A stretch of DNA of 64,000 bases from Acrocarpospora macrocephala (GTDB taxonomy: Bacteria; Actinomycetota; Actinomycetes; Streptosporangiales; Streptosporangiaceae), in contig NZ_BLAE01000010.1 in assembly GCF_009687865.1 (NCBI RefSeq), positions 41,992 to 105,991 of the forward strand. The letters run 5' to 3'. The stretch's first letter is position 1. The number at the start of each line of letters is the position of its first letter. Below the pieces are notes generated by a model, which was given only the letters and a program-made list of their open reading frames with translations, did no database searches and was not told the origin of the DNA. The translations under genes and the position numbers were made by a program. This document shows positions 4,922 to 59,908 of this stretch, piece by piece.

Positions 4922-6121
4922 TCACAGGTCTTCCAGGGCGTTGAGCAGGCGGTCCACGTCCGATCTGTCGTTGTAGTGCACCAGCCCGGCCCGTACGGCA
5001 GAACCGGTGTCACGGATGCCGAGCGCCCCCGTGAGCTCCCAGGCGTAGCAGTGCCCGTCCCACACGTTGACCTTGCGAGCCGCCAGGTGCTCGGCCACCT
5101 GGCGGGGCTCGCGCCCGGCGACGTCGAAGAACGCGGTGGCCGTACGGCGCACGGGCGAGCCGATCAGGCCGACGCCGGGCAGGGACGACAAGCCCTTGAG
5201 CAAGTGCGCGAACTCGGCCTGCTCATGGGCTTCGACCGCCGTCATCGAGGCGAGCAGCCGTTCCCGCCGGGTGCCGGTCGCGTCCGGGTCCAGTCCGGCG
5301 AGATGGTCGACCGCGGCGGTCACCCCGGCCAGGTCGGCGAAGGGCAGGGTGCCCGTTTCGAACCGGTCCGGCACCTCGTCCGGCGATGAGGCGAGCTTGT
5401 CGGGCGACAGCCGTACGAGCAGGTCAGGCCGGGCGATGACGGCTCCGATGTGCGGTCCCGACCATTTGTAGGAGCTGGTCGCGTAGAAGTCCGCGCCGAG
5501 GGCGACCATGTCGATCGGGGTGTGCGGCGTCGCGTGCACGCCGTCGACGTAGGCCAGCGCTCCCACGGCATGGGCCCGCGCGGTGATCCGCCGGACGTCG
5601 GGCATGGTGCCCAGGATGTTGCTGGCCGCGGTGACGGCGACGAGTCTCGTGCGGTCGGTCACGAGCTCGTCGTACTGCTCGGCGGGCAGTTCCCCGCTCG
5701 GCGCGTCGACGGCCGCCCATCTGATCCGGGCTCCGGCCCGGGTGGCGGCCTGCACCCATGGCCGTACGTTCGCGTCGTGGTCGAGCTGGGACACCACGAT
5801 CTCGTCGTCCGGGCCCCAGTCCTTCGCCAGCGCGTACGCGAACCGGTAGGTCAAAGTGGTCATGTTGGGGCCGAACACGACGCCGTCCGCGTCGCCGCCG
5901 ACGAGATCCGCGACGGCCTGGCGAGCCCGCGAGACGATCTCGTCGGATCGTGCGCTGGCCGGGAAGGCGCCGTGGGCGTTGCCGATTCCCTCGGCGTAGG
6001 CGGCGGCGATGGCATCGATCACCGGTCGCGGCACCTGGGTGCCCGCGGCCGCGTCCAACCAGGCATATCCGTCAGAAAGGGCAGGGTAGAGCGCGCGGAT
6101 CCGCGCGATGTCGAGGCTCAT
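4922..6121 (-). CDS. Cysteine-desulfurase-like class V aminotransferase
   Basis: The 399-residue product is a fold-type I PLP enzyme. Visible are the N-terminal WLDAAAGTQVP, SQLDHDANVRPW with the PLP-stacking His (H115), AVTAASNILGT, YVDGVHATPH with the cofactor Asp (D193), and SSYKWSGPH with the Schiff-base Lys (K219). It resembles the 'cysteine desulfurase-like' subfamily. The C-terminal region lacks the R-x-G-x-x-C-A motif that carries the catalytic Cys of SufS/IscS (here it reads VRAGLVHYNDRSD), although a Cys occurs earlier in DGHCYAWEL. A true desulfurase role is therefore doubtful, and a C-S lyase or other beta-elimination is possible. It is divergent to the SDR gene. Confidence 0.85.
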   Translation of the reverse strand: MSLDIARIRALYPALSDGYAWLDAAAGTQVPRPVIDAIAAAYAEGIGNAHGAFPASARSDEIVSRARQAVADLVGGDADGVVFGPNMTTLTYRFAYALAKDWGPDDEIVVSQLDHDANVRPWVQAATRAGARIRWAAVDAPSGELPAEQYDELVTDRTRLVAVTAASNILGTMPDVRRITARAHAVGALAYVDGVHATPHTPIDMVALGADFYATSSYKWSGPHIGAVIARPDLLVRLSPDKLASSPDEVPDRFETGTLPFADLAGVTAAVDHLAGLDPDATGTRRERLLASMTAVEAHEQAEFAHLLKGLSSLPGVGLIGSPVRRTATAFFDVAGREPRQVAEHLAARKVNVWDGHCYAWELTGALGIRDTGSAVRAGLVHYNDRSDVDRLLNALEDL

Positions 6122-56539: not shown

Positions 56540-56702
56540 CGATCCGTCCCGAAATCGAGGTTCAGCCAGCTTGCTCGCCAGCCGGGCGCGACCAAATATC
56601 GTGCTGTCTCCGCCGCAGGACTAGGGCTTTCCCTGAGAGCGCCCCTGGGGTGGGGTCCCGTCAGTTCTGTCTTCAATGAGGGGACTCCGAAGGGAATCGC
56701 TC

Positions 56703-58298
56703 ATGGACCGATTGACGGCCGACCAGGAGTTGAACGTCGGTGCGGAGCTTGTGTCGGGTAACGGGCGGGTGCGCCTGGTCATGCAGGGCGATGGCAACCT
56801 GGTCCTGTATCGCGTCGACGACGGGCATCCTTTGTGGGATACCGGCACCTGGGGCGGGCCCGTCACCCGAGCCGTGATGCAGGGCGACGGCAACTTCGTT
56901 CTCTACGACGACTCCGGCCAGGCCCACTGGGCTTCGGGTACCGACGGCAACCTCGGTGCCTGGCTGTGTCTGCAGAACGACGGCAACCTGGTCGTGTACG
57001 GCACCGCGGGCAATCCGCTCTGGGCCACCAACACCGTCCGGTACTTCGGCCCGGCCGCAGTGCCGGGGTTCTTGCCCTCCACGAGGGCCCCGCTGTTCGC
57101 AAACGGCCCGTGGCCGCCGGGGACCGCGCTGCCGGTCTCCATCCTCGGCCTGCCTCCGGTGTCCATCGACGTCACCCGGATGGGGTTGTGCGGTGGCATG
57201 TCCTTCCTCGCCAGGGACATTCACGAAAGCGGAACTCCTCAGCTCAAGGGCAGGGACTCGTCCGCCATCCCTGCCCCGCTCGCCCGGCACATCCTCGCCC
57301 GCCTGATCCGCAGCTTCAACGGACCGCCGGTGGTCTCCCGCTGGCTGGCGGACACCCAGGCGCTCGACCACGACACGCTGGTCTGGGGTCACGGGCTCTT
57401 CCACCGGACGTACAACGAAATTCCGGGAATCATCAGTGACATCGACAACGGCGTCCTCTGCCCGATAGGGCTCGTGCTTGTTCACTCATACGCACCGTGG
57501 GACGTCTTCCAGAACCACGTCGTCCTCGTCTGGGGCTACGAACAGCACGGCCATCTCCTGACCCTGCGCACCTACGACTGCAATCACCCCAACCGCGACG
57601 ACATCGTCCTCCAAATCGACATAAGCTCCCCCACCCCCGCCAAGACCATCACCACCAACGGCACAAGCGGCCCTGACCCCGGCCAGATCCGCGGCTTCTT
57701 CAGGATTCCGTACGAACACGCGGACCCAACCCCCGCCTACATCGACGACGGCTCGGTCGTCGCCTCGCCCCTACCCCCGGCGAACCTGCCCGCCGGCGCG
57801 CACACGCACGTCACGATGCGCGCCACCAACACCGGATCCACCACCTGGACTCCCGATCTCGGCTACCGGCTCGGCAGCCAGTCGCCCCAGGACAACACCA
57901 CTTGGGGATTGGGCAGGGTCGAACTGCCGGTGCCCGAGATTCGCCCCGGCTCCACGGCGACATTTCAGTTCGACGTCACCGCAACCGCCACGGCGGGCGT
58001 GCACGAGTTCAGCTGGCAGATGGTCCGGGAGGGGGTGCACTGGTTCGGCCACGCGAGCCCTCCGGTGCGGATCGCGGTGGGCTCCACCGACGGCGCGTGC
58101 GAGCAACTACACCAGCGCCACCAGCACCTCAACGCACAACTCGCCGAGGTGACCGCCGAGATCGCCGGCATCGACTGGAGCGATCCGTTCATCGCCAGAC
58201 ACGAGGCGGCCAATCTCAGCCGCCTCACGCAAGCCCTGCGCAGGCAGATCAGCGCTGTGGAAGCGCAGCAGGTCGCGCAGGGATGTGCCCCGGGATAA
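56703..58298 (+). CDS. Bulb-lectin / cysteine-peptidase-like / Nbr1-FW-like multidomain protein
   Basis: The 531-residue product has: a B-lectin domain (1-115) with three MQGDGNLVLY-type repeats; a central domain (about 155-330) with GLCGGMSFLARD (Cys163) and NHVVLVWGYEQHGHLLTLRT (His272) followed by YDCNHPNRDD, the order of a papain/C39-like Cys-His-Asp/Asn centre; an Ig-like FW domain of Nbr1 type (about 350-460: NTGSTTWTPDLGYRLG, WQMVREGVHWFG); and a C-terminal coiled coil (465-525). No signal peptide or membrane segment is visible. It could recognise a glycan or a tag and cut a peptide. ATG at 56703 with GAAGGGAA upstream. It opens an operon with a small Cys protein and an MNIO-type enzyme. 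Confidence 0.8.
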   Translation: MDRLTADQELNVGAELVSGNGRVRLVMQGDGNLVLYRVDDGHPLWDTGTWGGPVTRAVMQGDGNFVLYDDSGQAHWASGTDGNLGAWLCLQNDGNLVVYGTAGNPLWATNTVRYFGPAAVPGFLPSTRAPLFANGPWPPGTALPVSILGLPPVSIDVTRMGLCGGMSFLARDIHESGTPQLKGRDSSAIPAPLARHILARLIRSFNGPPVVSRWLADTQALDHDTLVWGHGLFHRTYNEIPGIISDIDNGVLCPIGLVLVHSYAPWDVFQNHVVLVWGYEQHGHLLTLRTYDCNHPNRDDIVLQIDISSPTPAKTITTNGTSGPDPGQIRGFFRIPYEHADPTPAYIDDGSVVASPLPPANLPAGAHTHVTMRATNTGSTTWTPDLGYRLGSQSPQDNTTWGLGRVELPVPEIRPGSTATFQFDVTATATAGVHEFSWQMVREGVHWFGHASPPVRIAVGSTDGACEQLHQRHQHLNAQLAEVTAEIAGIDWSDPFIARHEAANLSRLTQALRRQISAVEAQQVAQGCAPG

Positions 58299-58337
58299 GC
58301 CCGGCCCCACCGCACTCCACCTCGAAAGGGAGAAGCC

Positions 58338-58553
58338 ATGGCAACAGAGAACATGTTCCAGCTGAGCGACCGAGTGGTGAACGTCACCATCCCCGCGGAC
58401 GTCGCCTTCGATCTCGACCGGCTCCAGGCGGTGCAGCGGGATATTCTCGGCCGCCTCGGGTGCCAGGCCTGCTGCTCGGGATGGGACATCCGGTACGACA
58501 TCCAGCGCAGGTTCGTGGTCTCACGCGAGCTTGAGATCCGCGAACTGGGATGA
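58338..58553 (+). CDS. 71-residue protein with a C-x-x-C-C cluster, candidate MNIO substrate
   Basis: The product reads MATENMFQLSDRVVNVTIPA, then an amphipathic helix (DLDRLQAVQRDILGRL), GCQACCSGWDIRYD with Cys42, Cys45 and Cys46, and a charged tail (RRFVVSRELEIRELG). AAAGGGAGAAG gives a strong ribosome-binding site. Its stop overlaps the ATG of the DUF692/MNIO-type gene (ATGA), so the two are translated together. Precursors of MNIO enzymes are short peptides whose Cys residues are modified; here the Cys lie in the middle rather than at the C-terminus, so it might also be a metal- or partner-binding protein. No characterised family recognised. Confidence 0.75.
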   Translation: MATENMFQLSDRVVNVTIPADVAFDLDRLQAVQRDILGRLGCQACCSGWDIRYDIQRRFVVSRELEIRELG

Positions 58554-59908
58554 GCGGGGTCCAGGACCTGCGGGAACTGCCGGAGCTGGGTGTCGGGCTC
58601 GTCTACTGGCCCGGGTTCGAGAGCCTGCTCGACCAGGTGGACGTGGTCGAGGTGGAACCGCAGGTCTTCTGGTTCGCCCCAGACACGGACGGCGAGCCGT
58701 TCCGGCTGGACCAGCGCGCGTTCGAACGGCTCTCGCGGATCCGGAAGCCGAAGCTGGTGCACGGCGTGGGCCATCCGGTGGGCGGCACAGAGGCGGACGA
58801 GCGTCACCTCCAGCCTTTCGCCGAATCCGTCGCGCTGCTCCAGGCGCCCTGGGCGAGCGAGCATCTCAGCTTCAACCGGCTCCACGGGACAGACCTCGGT
58901 TTCCTGCTGCCGCCCGTACAGAGCGAGGAAGGCATCGCCCTCGCCGTCGAGAACATCCGCGCGCTGCGCGAACGCCTGCCTGTGCCGTTCGCGTTCGAGA
59001 CAGGAGTCAGCTACCTGCGACCCCAAGCAGGGGAACTGTCCGACGGGACGTTCTTCGCCGCGATCGCCCGCGCGGCGGACTGTGGAATCCTGCTCGATCT
59101 GCACAACCTGTGGGCCAACGAACGCAACGGACGCCAGGCCGCCCTCGACGTGGTGGCCGAACTGCCGCTGGAGCGTGTGGTGGAGGTGCATCTGGCCGGC
59201 GGGCGGGAGTACGCCGGTTACTGGGTGGATGCCCACTCCGGCCCGGTCCCGCCGGAGGTGCTGGACATCGCCCGCCAGGTGATCCCGCGGCTGCCGAATC
59301 TCAAGGCCGTCGTCTACGAGGTGATGCCGGAGTCCGTCACGGACGCGAACCTGCCGATGGACCAGATTCTCGAACTGCGCGACCTGTGGGAACTGCGCGG
59401 CGCCGCCGCCGCTCCCCCGCTGCCCGCACCCCGAGCCTGGGAGGACGGCCTCGCCGCGGCCCTGCTGAGCGGGGAGCCTGCCGCGGACCCCGGAATCACC
59501 GTGCTGCGCAAACTCATCGGATCGGTGCGCGCCGGGAAGGTGGCCGACACGCTGCCTCTCACGACACGGCTGCTCCTGCTGACGCTCGGCGGAGAGGCCG
59601 TCGACGACCTCTTCGCCCACTTCTGGCACGCCACGCCGTCGGAGCAGATGGCCTCCGATGAGGCGCGGCTGTTCGCCGCTCACGTCACCGGCATGCCGCT
59701 GGAGGTGCCGTACCTCCGCGAGGTGGCGGATTTCGAACTGGCCGCGCTCCAGGCCGTCCTGGCCGGACTTCCGCAACGGGTGTCCTTCAGCGTCGATCCA
59801 GGACCTGTCCTCGCGGCCCTCCGCCACGGACGCCTCCCCGCAGCCCAGCCCACCGCCGCCCACGAGATCACGGTGCAGCCTCCGGCGCCGCTCCAAGCGC
59901 CGGGCTAG
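58550..59908 (+). CDS. DUF692/MNIO-type iron oxidase fused to a partner-like domain
   Basis: The 452-residue product has a TIM-barrel DUF692 (multinuclear non-heme iron oxidase) domain in residues 1-290: ELGVGLVYWPGFESLLDQVD, LVHGVGHPVGG (His71), ASEHLSFNRLHGTD (His105), FAFETGVSYL (Glu150), ILLDLHNLWANERNG (Asp183), VVEVHLAGGREY (Glu212, His214), VDAHSGPV (Asp227, His229) and VVYEVMPESV (Glu257). MbnB and TglH of this family install Cys-derived modifications on peptides. The C-terminal part (about 305-435), with FAHFWHATPSEQMASDEARL and VPYLREVADFELAALQAVLA, resembles the DUF2063/MbnC-type partner that binds the peptide. ATG overlaps the small gene's stop. Confidence 0.85.
   Translation: MSGVQDLRELPELGVGLVYWPGFESLLDQVDVVEVEPQVFWFAPDTDGEPFRLDQRAFERLSRIRKPKLVHGVGHPVGGTEADERHLQPFAESVALLQAPWASEHLSFNRLHGTDLGFLLPPVQSEEGIALAVENIRALRERLPVPFAFETGVSYLRPQAGELSDGTFFAAIARAADCGILLDLHNLWANERNGRQAALDVVAELPLERVVEVHLAGGREYAGYWVDAHSGPVPPEVLDIARQVIPRLPNLKAVVYEVMPESVTDANLPMDQILELRDLWELRGAAAAPPLPAPRAWEDGLAAALLSGEPAADPGITVLRKLIGSVRAGKVADTLPLTTRLLLLTLGGEAVDDLFAHFWHATPSEQMASDEARLFAAHVTGMPLEVPYLREVADFELAALQAVLAGLPQRVSFSVDPGPVLAALRHGRLPAAQPTAAHEITVQPPAPLQAPG

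Follow-up and report, generated by a model that had tools for sequence, protein, structure and literature searches.

The question raised by this locus is which of three closely spaced plus-strand genes in a 64,000-nucleotide stretch of the Acrocarpospora macrocephala genome (the window, taken from a draft assembly of 12.1 Mb in 166 contigs) belong together, and what they do. The first gene encodes a multidomain lectin protein (P0001), the second a small cysteine-containing protein (P0002) and the third an enzyme of the DUF692 or MNIO family (P0003). A first-pass annotation of the window had read all three as a peptide-modification system in which the multidomain protein might cut or target the modified peptide or serve as its partner. 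The layout it described agrees with the open reading frame (ORF) coordinates: 39 bp separate genes 1 and 2, and genes 2 and 3 overlap by 4 bp. Of the proposed system, our analysis retains the last two genes, a conserved pair that resembles a substrate and its enzyme, and drops the first, which is absent near the pair in its three closest relatives. The pair is probably a two-gene cassette for post-translational modification, made up of an MNIO fused to its partner and a small CxxCxSG protein.

The pairing was examined from both sides. Five MNIOs found through homologues of the small protein were aligned and used to scan genome contigs, which gave 44 loci, many of them in draft metagenome-assembled genomes. 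Thirty-five of these carry a fused-type enzyme with a continuous frame, one a fused-type enzyme with a broken frame (L047), one an enzyme cut by the contig end (L057), four a split-type arrangement (L050-L053) and three other MNIOs (L054, L055 and L058). A CxSG protein lies directly upstream of the MNIO in 34/35 fused-type loci, with the full GCxxCxSG in 33/35, and in 4/4 split-type loci. These upstream proteins are mostly shorter than 100 aa; longer ones occur in L028 (175 aa), L043 and L046 (two domains each), and that of L041, whose start lies beyond the contig end, reads GSHPCISG. The contig-cut L057 is also preceded by such a protein, with GCPTCYSG. At positions 5240-5494 and 5620-7010 of L047, a cyanobacterial draft (Acaryochloridaceae), a peptide unlike the usual small protein precedes the frame-broken MNIO; it has a leader-like stretch, LSDGEQEASNGG, with CPACSSG towards its end. 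If this peptide is a leader-core substrate, the motif it shares would speak for CxxCxSG as the site of modification. No CxSG protein was found upstream of the three other MNIOs, and two of them (L055 and L058) have ORFs with EGKCG or HKCG repeats in that place.

Searches that started from the small protein gave homologues in 3/200 genomes of the order and 5/396 genomes of the phylum, the source genome being counted in both. Two of the latter (G405 and G552) are weak matches with no MNIO in their 3-kb pieces, and we judged them to be chance. After these were dropped, an MNIO lay next door in 6/6 further matches, those in Lysobacteraceae included, four of which are also among the 44 loci. The small protein was found in 3/149 Lysobacteraceae genomes, one of them the starting genome, and the other two have the MNIO (the Lysobacteraceae members of the family are L022 and L027). 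Among Mucilaginibacter genomes it was found in 12/149, of which 11, the starting genome included, have a motif-bearing copy; a fused-type MNIO sequence follows directly downstream in all 11 (whole in 9, truncated at the contig end in L099 and broken in L103), and several of these genomes coincide with loci of the MNIO scan. The twelfth (G1379) has only a relative without the cysteines. One weak second small-protein match was seen in the Mucilaginibacter genome G1322 (L106). When 15 genomes were picked through the MNIO instead, 17/17 small-protein matches fell at the MNIO locus. The distance matrices of the two proteins correlate over 35 pairs (r 0.73, with 0/2000 permutations as high), a result that co-inheritance alone would also give.

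The small protein P0002 (71 aa; 58338..58553, plus strand) carries the motif GCxxCxSG at residues G41 to G48 (58458..58481, plus strand), and this motif is the best conserved part of the protein in our alignment of 37 small proteins (A5). C42 is kept in 35/37 rows, C45 and S47 each in 36/37 and G48 in 37/37. A5 excludes the 175-aa protein of L028, L047 and the split-type small proteins, and it represents L043 and L046 by their second repeat only and L041 without its start. The C-x-x-C-C named in the first-pass annotation is present among the three cysteines of P0002, and its third cysteine, C46, was rejected as a motif member because it is kept in only 12/37 rows. Both conserved cysteines are internal, at residues 42 and 45 of 71. 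In the 10-kb pieces of the 44 loci the strict pattern occurs only twice elsewhere than before an MNIO (L020 and L028), so that its place there exceeds what chance would give. The proteins upstream of the MNIO in L043 and L046 consist of two tandem domains, the first repeat with GHxACATGC and the second with GCxACCSG, joined by an NPQPxPP-type linker; LNPQPLPP also occurs near the start of the L035 and L045 proteins. Because L031 has tandem small-protein genes, and L043 and L046 have tandem motifs in one protein, the small protein appears suited to the role of a substrate. We regard it as likely that it is the substrate.

Neither a Pfam nor an NCBIfam family matched P0002. The 37 small proteins together gave only single-member hits against NCBIfam and Pfam (best 0.02 and 0.015); no family of either collection covers them, and a search of PDB sequences with the small protein yielded nothing of use. 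The N-terminus of P0002 shows no hydrophobic stretch or signal peptide on inspection by eye (a predictor was not run). The structural model, at a predicted local distance difference test score (pLDDT) of 76.9, which is moderate confidence, has a b-a-b-b-b fold (b, strand; a, helix) and places the motif in the loop that follows the helix; the protein is probably folded. A fold search with this model found no PDB match at E 0.001.

P0003 (452 aa; 58550..59908, plus strand) was read as an MNIO, most likely partner-fused, from its ORF, its Pfam match, the alignment of its relatives and its model. The first-pass assignment to DUF692 is borne out by PF05114 (144.9 bits, cut-off 25; E 3.5e-42), and the same profile matches 36/36 enzymes (best E 4.3e-48) of alignment A4, which consists of the 35 fused-type loci and the window and leaves out L047, L057 and the non-fused MNIOs. 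The model (pLDDT 93.1, predicted template modelling score 0.71) comprises a TIM barrel, placed by model and ligand alignment at about residues 14-285 (58589..59404, plus strand), and a C-terminal helical domain. Foldseek ranked TglH, 3bww and MbnB at the top (TglH E 1.5e-17), and among solved structures TglH is also the closest when sequence profiles are compared (5.3e-33), the DLHN stretch being common to both. The TglH iron ligands H71, H107, E151, D184, N187, H216, D229, H231 and E258 (PMC10880893) have their counterparts in P0003 at H71, H105, E150, D183, N186, H214, D227, H229 and E257, and these nine positions are invariant in 36/36 enzymes. In NCBIfam, BufB ranks first for P0003 with 118.6 bits, well below its equivalog cut-off of 310. 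By its sequence, P0003 seems to be an iron-dependent protein-modifying enzyme.

The C-terminal domain of P0003, residues 290-452 (59417..59905, plus strand), is modelled as helices over 294-405, a strand at 409-413, a helix at 417-425 and a strand at 438-442. It is homologous to a separate gene in the four split-type loci, which come from two Acidobacteria, an Archangium and a Nitrospira and in which a small protein (GL[KR]xCxxCxSG in 4/4) is followed by a shorter MNIO (293-305 aa by start codons) and then by the separate gene (203-227 aa). Within the ORFs of eight loci, a small set to which the E-values refer, the profile of the fused domain ranked the four separate genes first (8e-18, 8e-13, 8e-8 and 3e-7), and the DUF2063 protein of L055 came next (0.002). 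Comparison of the fused domain with the split partners by hhalign gave 98.7% (E 3e-16), and the alignment of fused-type with split-type small proteins covers 31 columns at the motif (93%, E 2.6e-7); the same three functions therefore occur both split and fused. In P0003, then, an MNIO and its partner protein have most likely become one chain, and the partner role that had been offered to the multidomain protein is more likely filled by the enzyme's own C-terminal domain. With a partner domain fused to the MNIO, no separate DUF2063-, TglI- or MbnC-type protein would be needed, and the PF09836 (DUF2063) profile found no stand-alone partner in the source genome at E 0.001.

In the mechanism that we propose, gene 2 would give rise to a small, probably folded, cytosolic protein with GCxxCxSG in a loop, and gene 3 to an MNIO with its own substrate-binding or partner domain at the C-terminus. 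The fused domain would hold the small protein, the loop would thereby reach the iron cluster, and the enzyme would oxidise a loop cysteine, most likely C45 of C-x-S-G; as the modified residue, C45 is the choice we lean towards. The reaction could turn the cysteine into a heterocycle of the thiooxazole or oxazolone type, a chemistry that we consider possible without giving it the better chance. The product would not leave the cell and would serve there as a modified protein for metal or redox binding. That it is intracellular is the simpler reading because the loci show no recurrent exporter, leader protease or peptidase, or signal peptide; a metal or redox role there is more doubtful. Only tentatively do we picture the whole as a self-contained system of one enzyme and one protein, handed on sporadically between members of six or more phyla, in which a partner-carrying MNIO would rewrite a loop cysteine of a folded cytosolic protein into an intracellular cofactor or metal site and not a secreted peptide natural product.

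Several observations weigh against this proposal. The upstream small protein of L026 lacks the motif. Mucilaginibacter has paralogues in which both motif cysteines are replaced (GYPDSYTG, GYPDGYAG and GYPNSYSE), three of them close to a cysteine-bearing copy (L107, L108 and L109, in three genomes) and one alone (L105), and for the copy in G1379 the MNIO profile matched nothing in the 3-kb piece; the small-protein fold may therefore have a use without modification. P0002 looks like a folded protein and not a leader-core peptide, in a model of only moderate confidence. The fused domain resembles DUF2063 only weakly: matches were found in 2/36 members (best 0.017), hhalign against one DUF2063 protein gave only 67%, and the split partners did not match that same protein. 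PDB sequence searches with the fused domain and with the split partners gave no partner structure. The fold-search rows for P0003 are, among the matches listed, barrel proteins, and the fold of the fused domain is for that reason unmatched on its own.

A variant compatible with the proposed cassette is that P0003 carries out TglH-like chemistry, namely beta-carbon excision, or another oxidation of cysteine that forms no heterocycle. Its closest structure is TglH both by sequence profile and by fold, with DLHN in common. As a system, TglHI of the 3-thiaglutamate/pearlin pathway also has the MNIO barrel, the nine iron-ligand positions and a helical partner, TglI, which is a separate protein with an RRE domain (PMC10880893). 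Against the variant, TglH acts on a C-terminal cysteine that is added by a PEARL enzyme (PMC10880893), whereas the cysteines of P0002 are internal, and NCBIfam places BufB, below its cut-off, ahead of other families. We think this variant unlikely.

Other known systems resemble the cassette in part. The bufferin clusters BufABC (PMC12452194) share a precursor gene directly before the MNIO, a cysteine motif and a partner with a DUF2063-type domain; they differ in that here no signal peptide was seen by eye, the partner is fused, the genome gave no DUF2063 match and the BufB score is 118.6 vs 310. From the same source (Antoine et al. 2025), adjamnio-IV comprises 10 putative precursors of 119-146 aa with 5-6 Cys and CxxCC, arranged as 'Adjamnio-IV - MNIO' without mention of a partner gene, and adjamnio-7 comprises signal-less putative precursors with CxxC (reference WP_078758616); neither is assigned a function there. 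The likeness lies in the CxxCC of the one, the CxxC and missing signal of the other, and the gene position before the MNIO. A relative of P0002, P0010 (144 aa, 5 Cys), fits the description of adjamnio-IV, and P0002 itself, with 71 aa and 3 Cys, does not, apart from its CxxCC. Our guess, from a comparison of descriptions only, is that parts of the family are adjamnio-IV and adjamnio-7. The Results and Discussion of PMC12452194 report MNIO/nitroreductase fusions and the winged helix of MovX, and no MNIO fused to a DUF2063-like partner. MovX of Vibrio parallels P0003 in that this MNIO is thought to be partner-independent since its extra domain may serve instead, but that domain is a winged helix and the one in P0003 is a helical domain, weakly DUF2063-like. 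In the literature searched, no function is described for the small-protein/MNIO family. The source genome holds a second MNIO (G000:C14:76541-77320, L008) after a TIGR04222 membrane protein, an actinobacterial arrangement described in PMC12452194.

It is also conceivable that the small protein is an accessory of the MNIO, an iron-delivery, redox or targeting subunit, and that the enzyme acts on another target. Such a role would suit a protein that is predicted to be folded, whose top-ranked fold match, though insignificant, is to the metallochaperone HypA (E 0.46) and whose cysteine-less paralogues sit near cysteine-bearing copies in three Mucilaginibacter genomes. It fits poorly with an enzyme that already has a partner-like domain, with a cysteine motif that is the best conserved part of the small protein and with the different peptide upstream in L047, whose LSD...GG leader-like stretch and CPACSSG near the end are as expected of a substrate. 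Nor did a gene for an alternative substrate recur: a shared third gene was sought in 36 neighbourhoods (the 35 loci and the window) and none recurs widely; beyond near relatives there is only one family, of ~800 aa on the minus strand, which L027 shares with four Mucilaginibacter loci. We judge the accessory role to be improbable. By eye, L039 has a second, short MNIO and a DoxX-like protein on the other strand, some 1.8-3.3 kb upstream of the cassette MNIO; they are perhaps a bufferin-type cluster beside the cassette.

The cassette is sporadic and rare, in distant bacterial groups. The rows of A4 belong to Pseudomonadota (13), Actinomycetota (8), Bacteroidota (7), Acidobacteriota (3), Chloroflexota (2) and Cyanobacteriota (1), with two unassigned, including the window. 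In the window's genus the other 4 of 5 genomes are without the small protein, and among cyanobacteria only 1/388 genomes matched at E 1e-60, the member already known. In the enzyme tree the rows closest to the window are Streptosporangiaceae, and of the five phyla with at least two rows only Bacteroidota forms one side of a branch. Transfer is likely but, as many deep branches are weak, not proved.

The first gene, P0001 (531 aa; 56703..58298, plus strand, or 540 aa from an in-frame ATG at 56676), was judged not to be part of the system. The first-pass annotation gave it a B-lectin, a cysteine-peptidase-like and an Nbr1-type Ig domain. The lectin part has good support from PDB sequence matches (Pyocin L1, 8.7e-24), but in Pfam neither B_lectin (4e-4) nor N_BRCA1_IG (2.4e-4) reaches its cut-off and no peptidase family matched. 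In the middle domain GLCGGM, NH and YDxN are kept in 8/8 aligned sequences, two of them 82% identical, which is compatible with a Cys/His/Asn peptidase-like set. The domain also occurs behind other N-termini in genomes of the same family, and these relatives retain the Cys, His and Asp/Asn positions. P0001 matches occur in 69/297 genomes of the order, its own included, and are mostly partial, to the lectin or the middle domain; among the matches listed, only its own genome and G070 (82%) have a full-length one. The first-pass annotation had staked the three-gene system on the co-occurrence of all three genes in other genomes, and in the relatives compared genes 2 and 3 occur together with no gene 1 beside them. 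It is very improbable that a lectin/peptidase-like protein cuts or targets the modified peptide or acts as its partner: co-transcription of genes 1 and 2 is possible in the window because of the 39-bp gap with no inverted repeat in it, but the three closest relatives of the pair (L015, L016 and L049) have no lectin gene within 8 kb, the G070 homologue has neither small protein nor MNIO in its 19-kb neighbourhood and no MNIO profile match in its genome, and the lectin matches of G173 are on contigs other than the pair's. P0001 appears to be an unrelated neighbour of the pair, and is perhaps an antagonistic or surface-acting enzyme.

Between a beta-lactamase-family gene and the lectin gene lies the repeat that had been called terminator-like. 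Its two 12-bp arms (56494-56505/56528-56539) form a perfect inverted repeat around a 22-nt loop; as a terminator it is unconvincing, with no T-run after it, and the terminator scan passed it over, picking a single weak site elsewhere (56649-56662) where chance alone would give 1.2. The repeat could be a regulatory site.

The comparison gathers scattered small cysteine proteins into one family whose enzyme occurs in split and fused forms. If the proposal is true, this would be a very simple MNIO system, with two proteins, no separate partner and a sharply defined eight-residue motif, and an enzyme with its partner built in would help to explain the way in which substrates are presented by partner proteins. 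With a folded protein as substrate, the reach of MNIO chemistry would extend beyond peptide natural products to protein cofactors.

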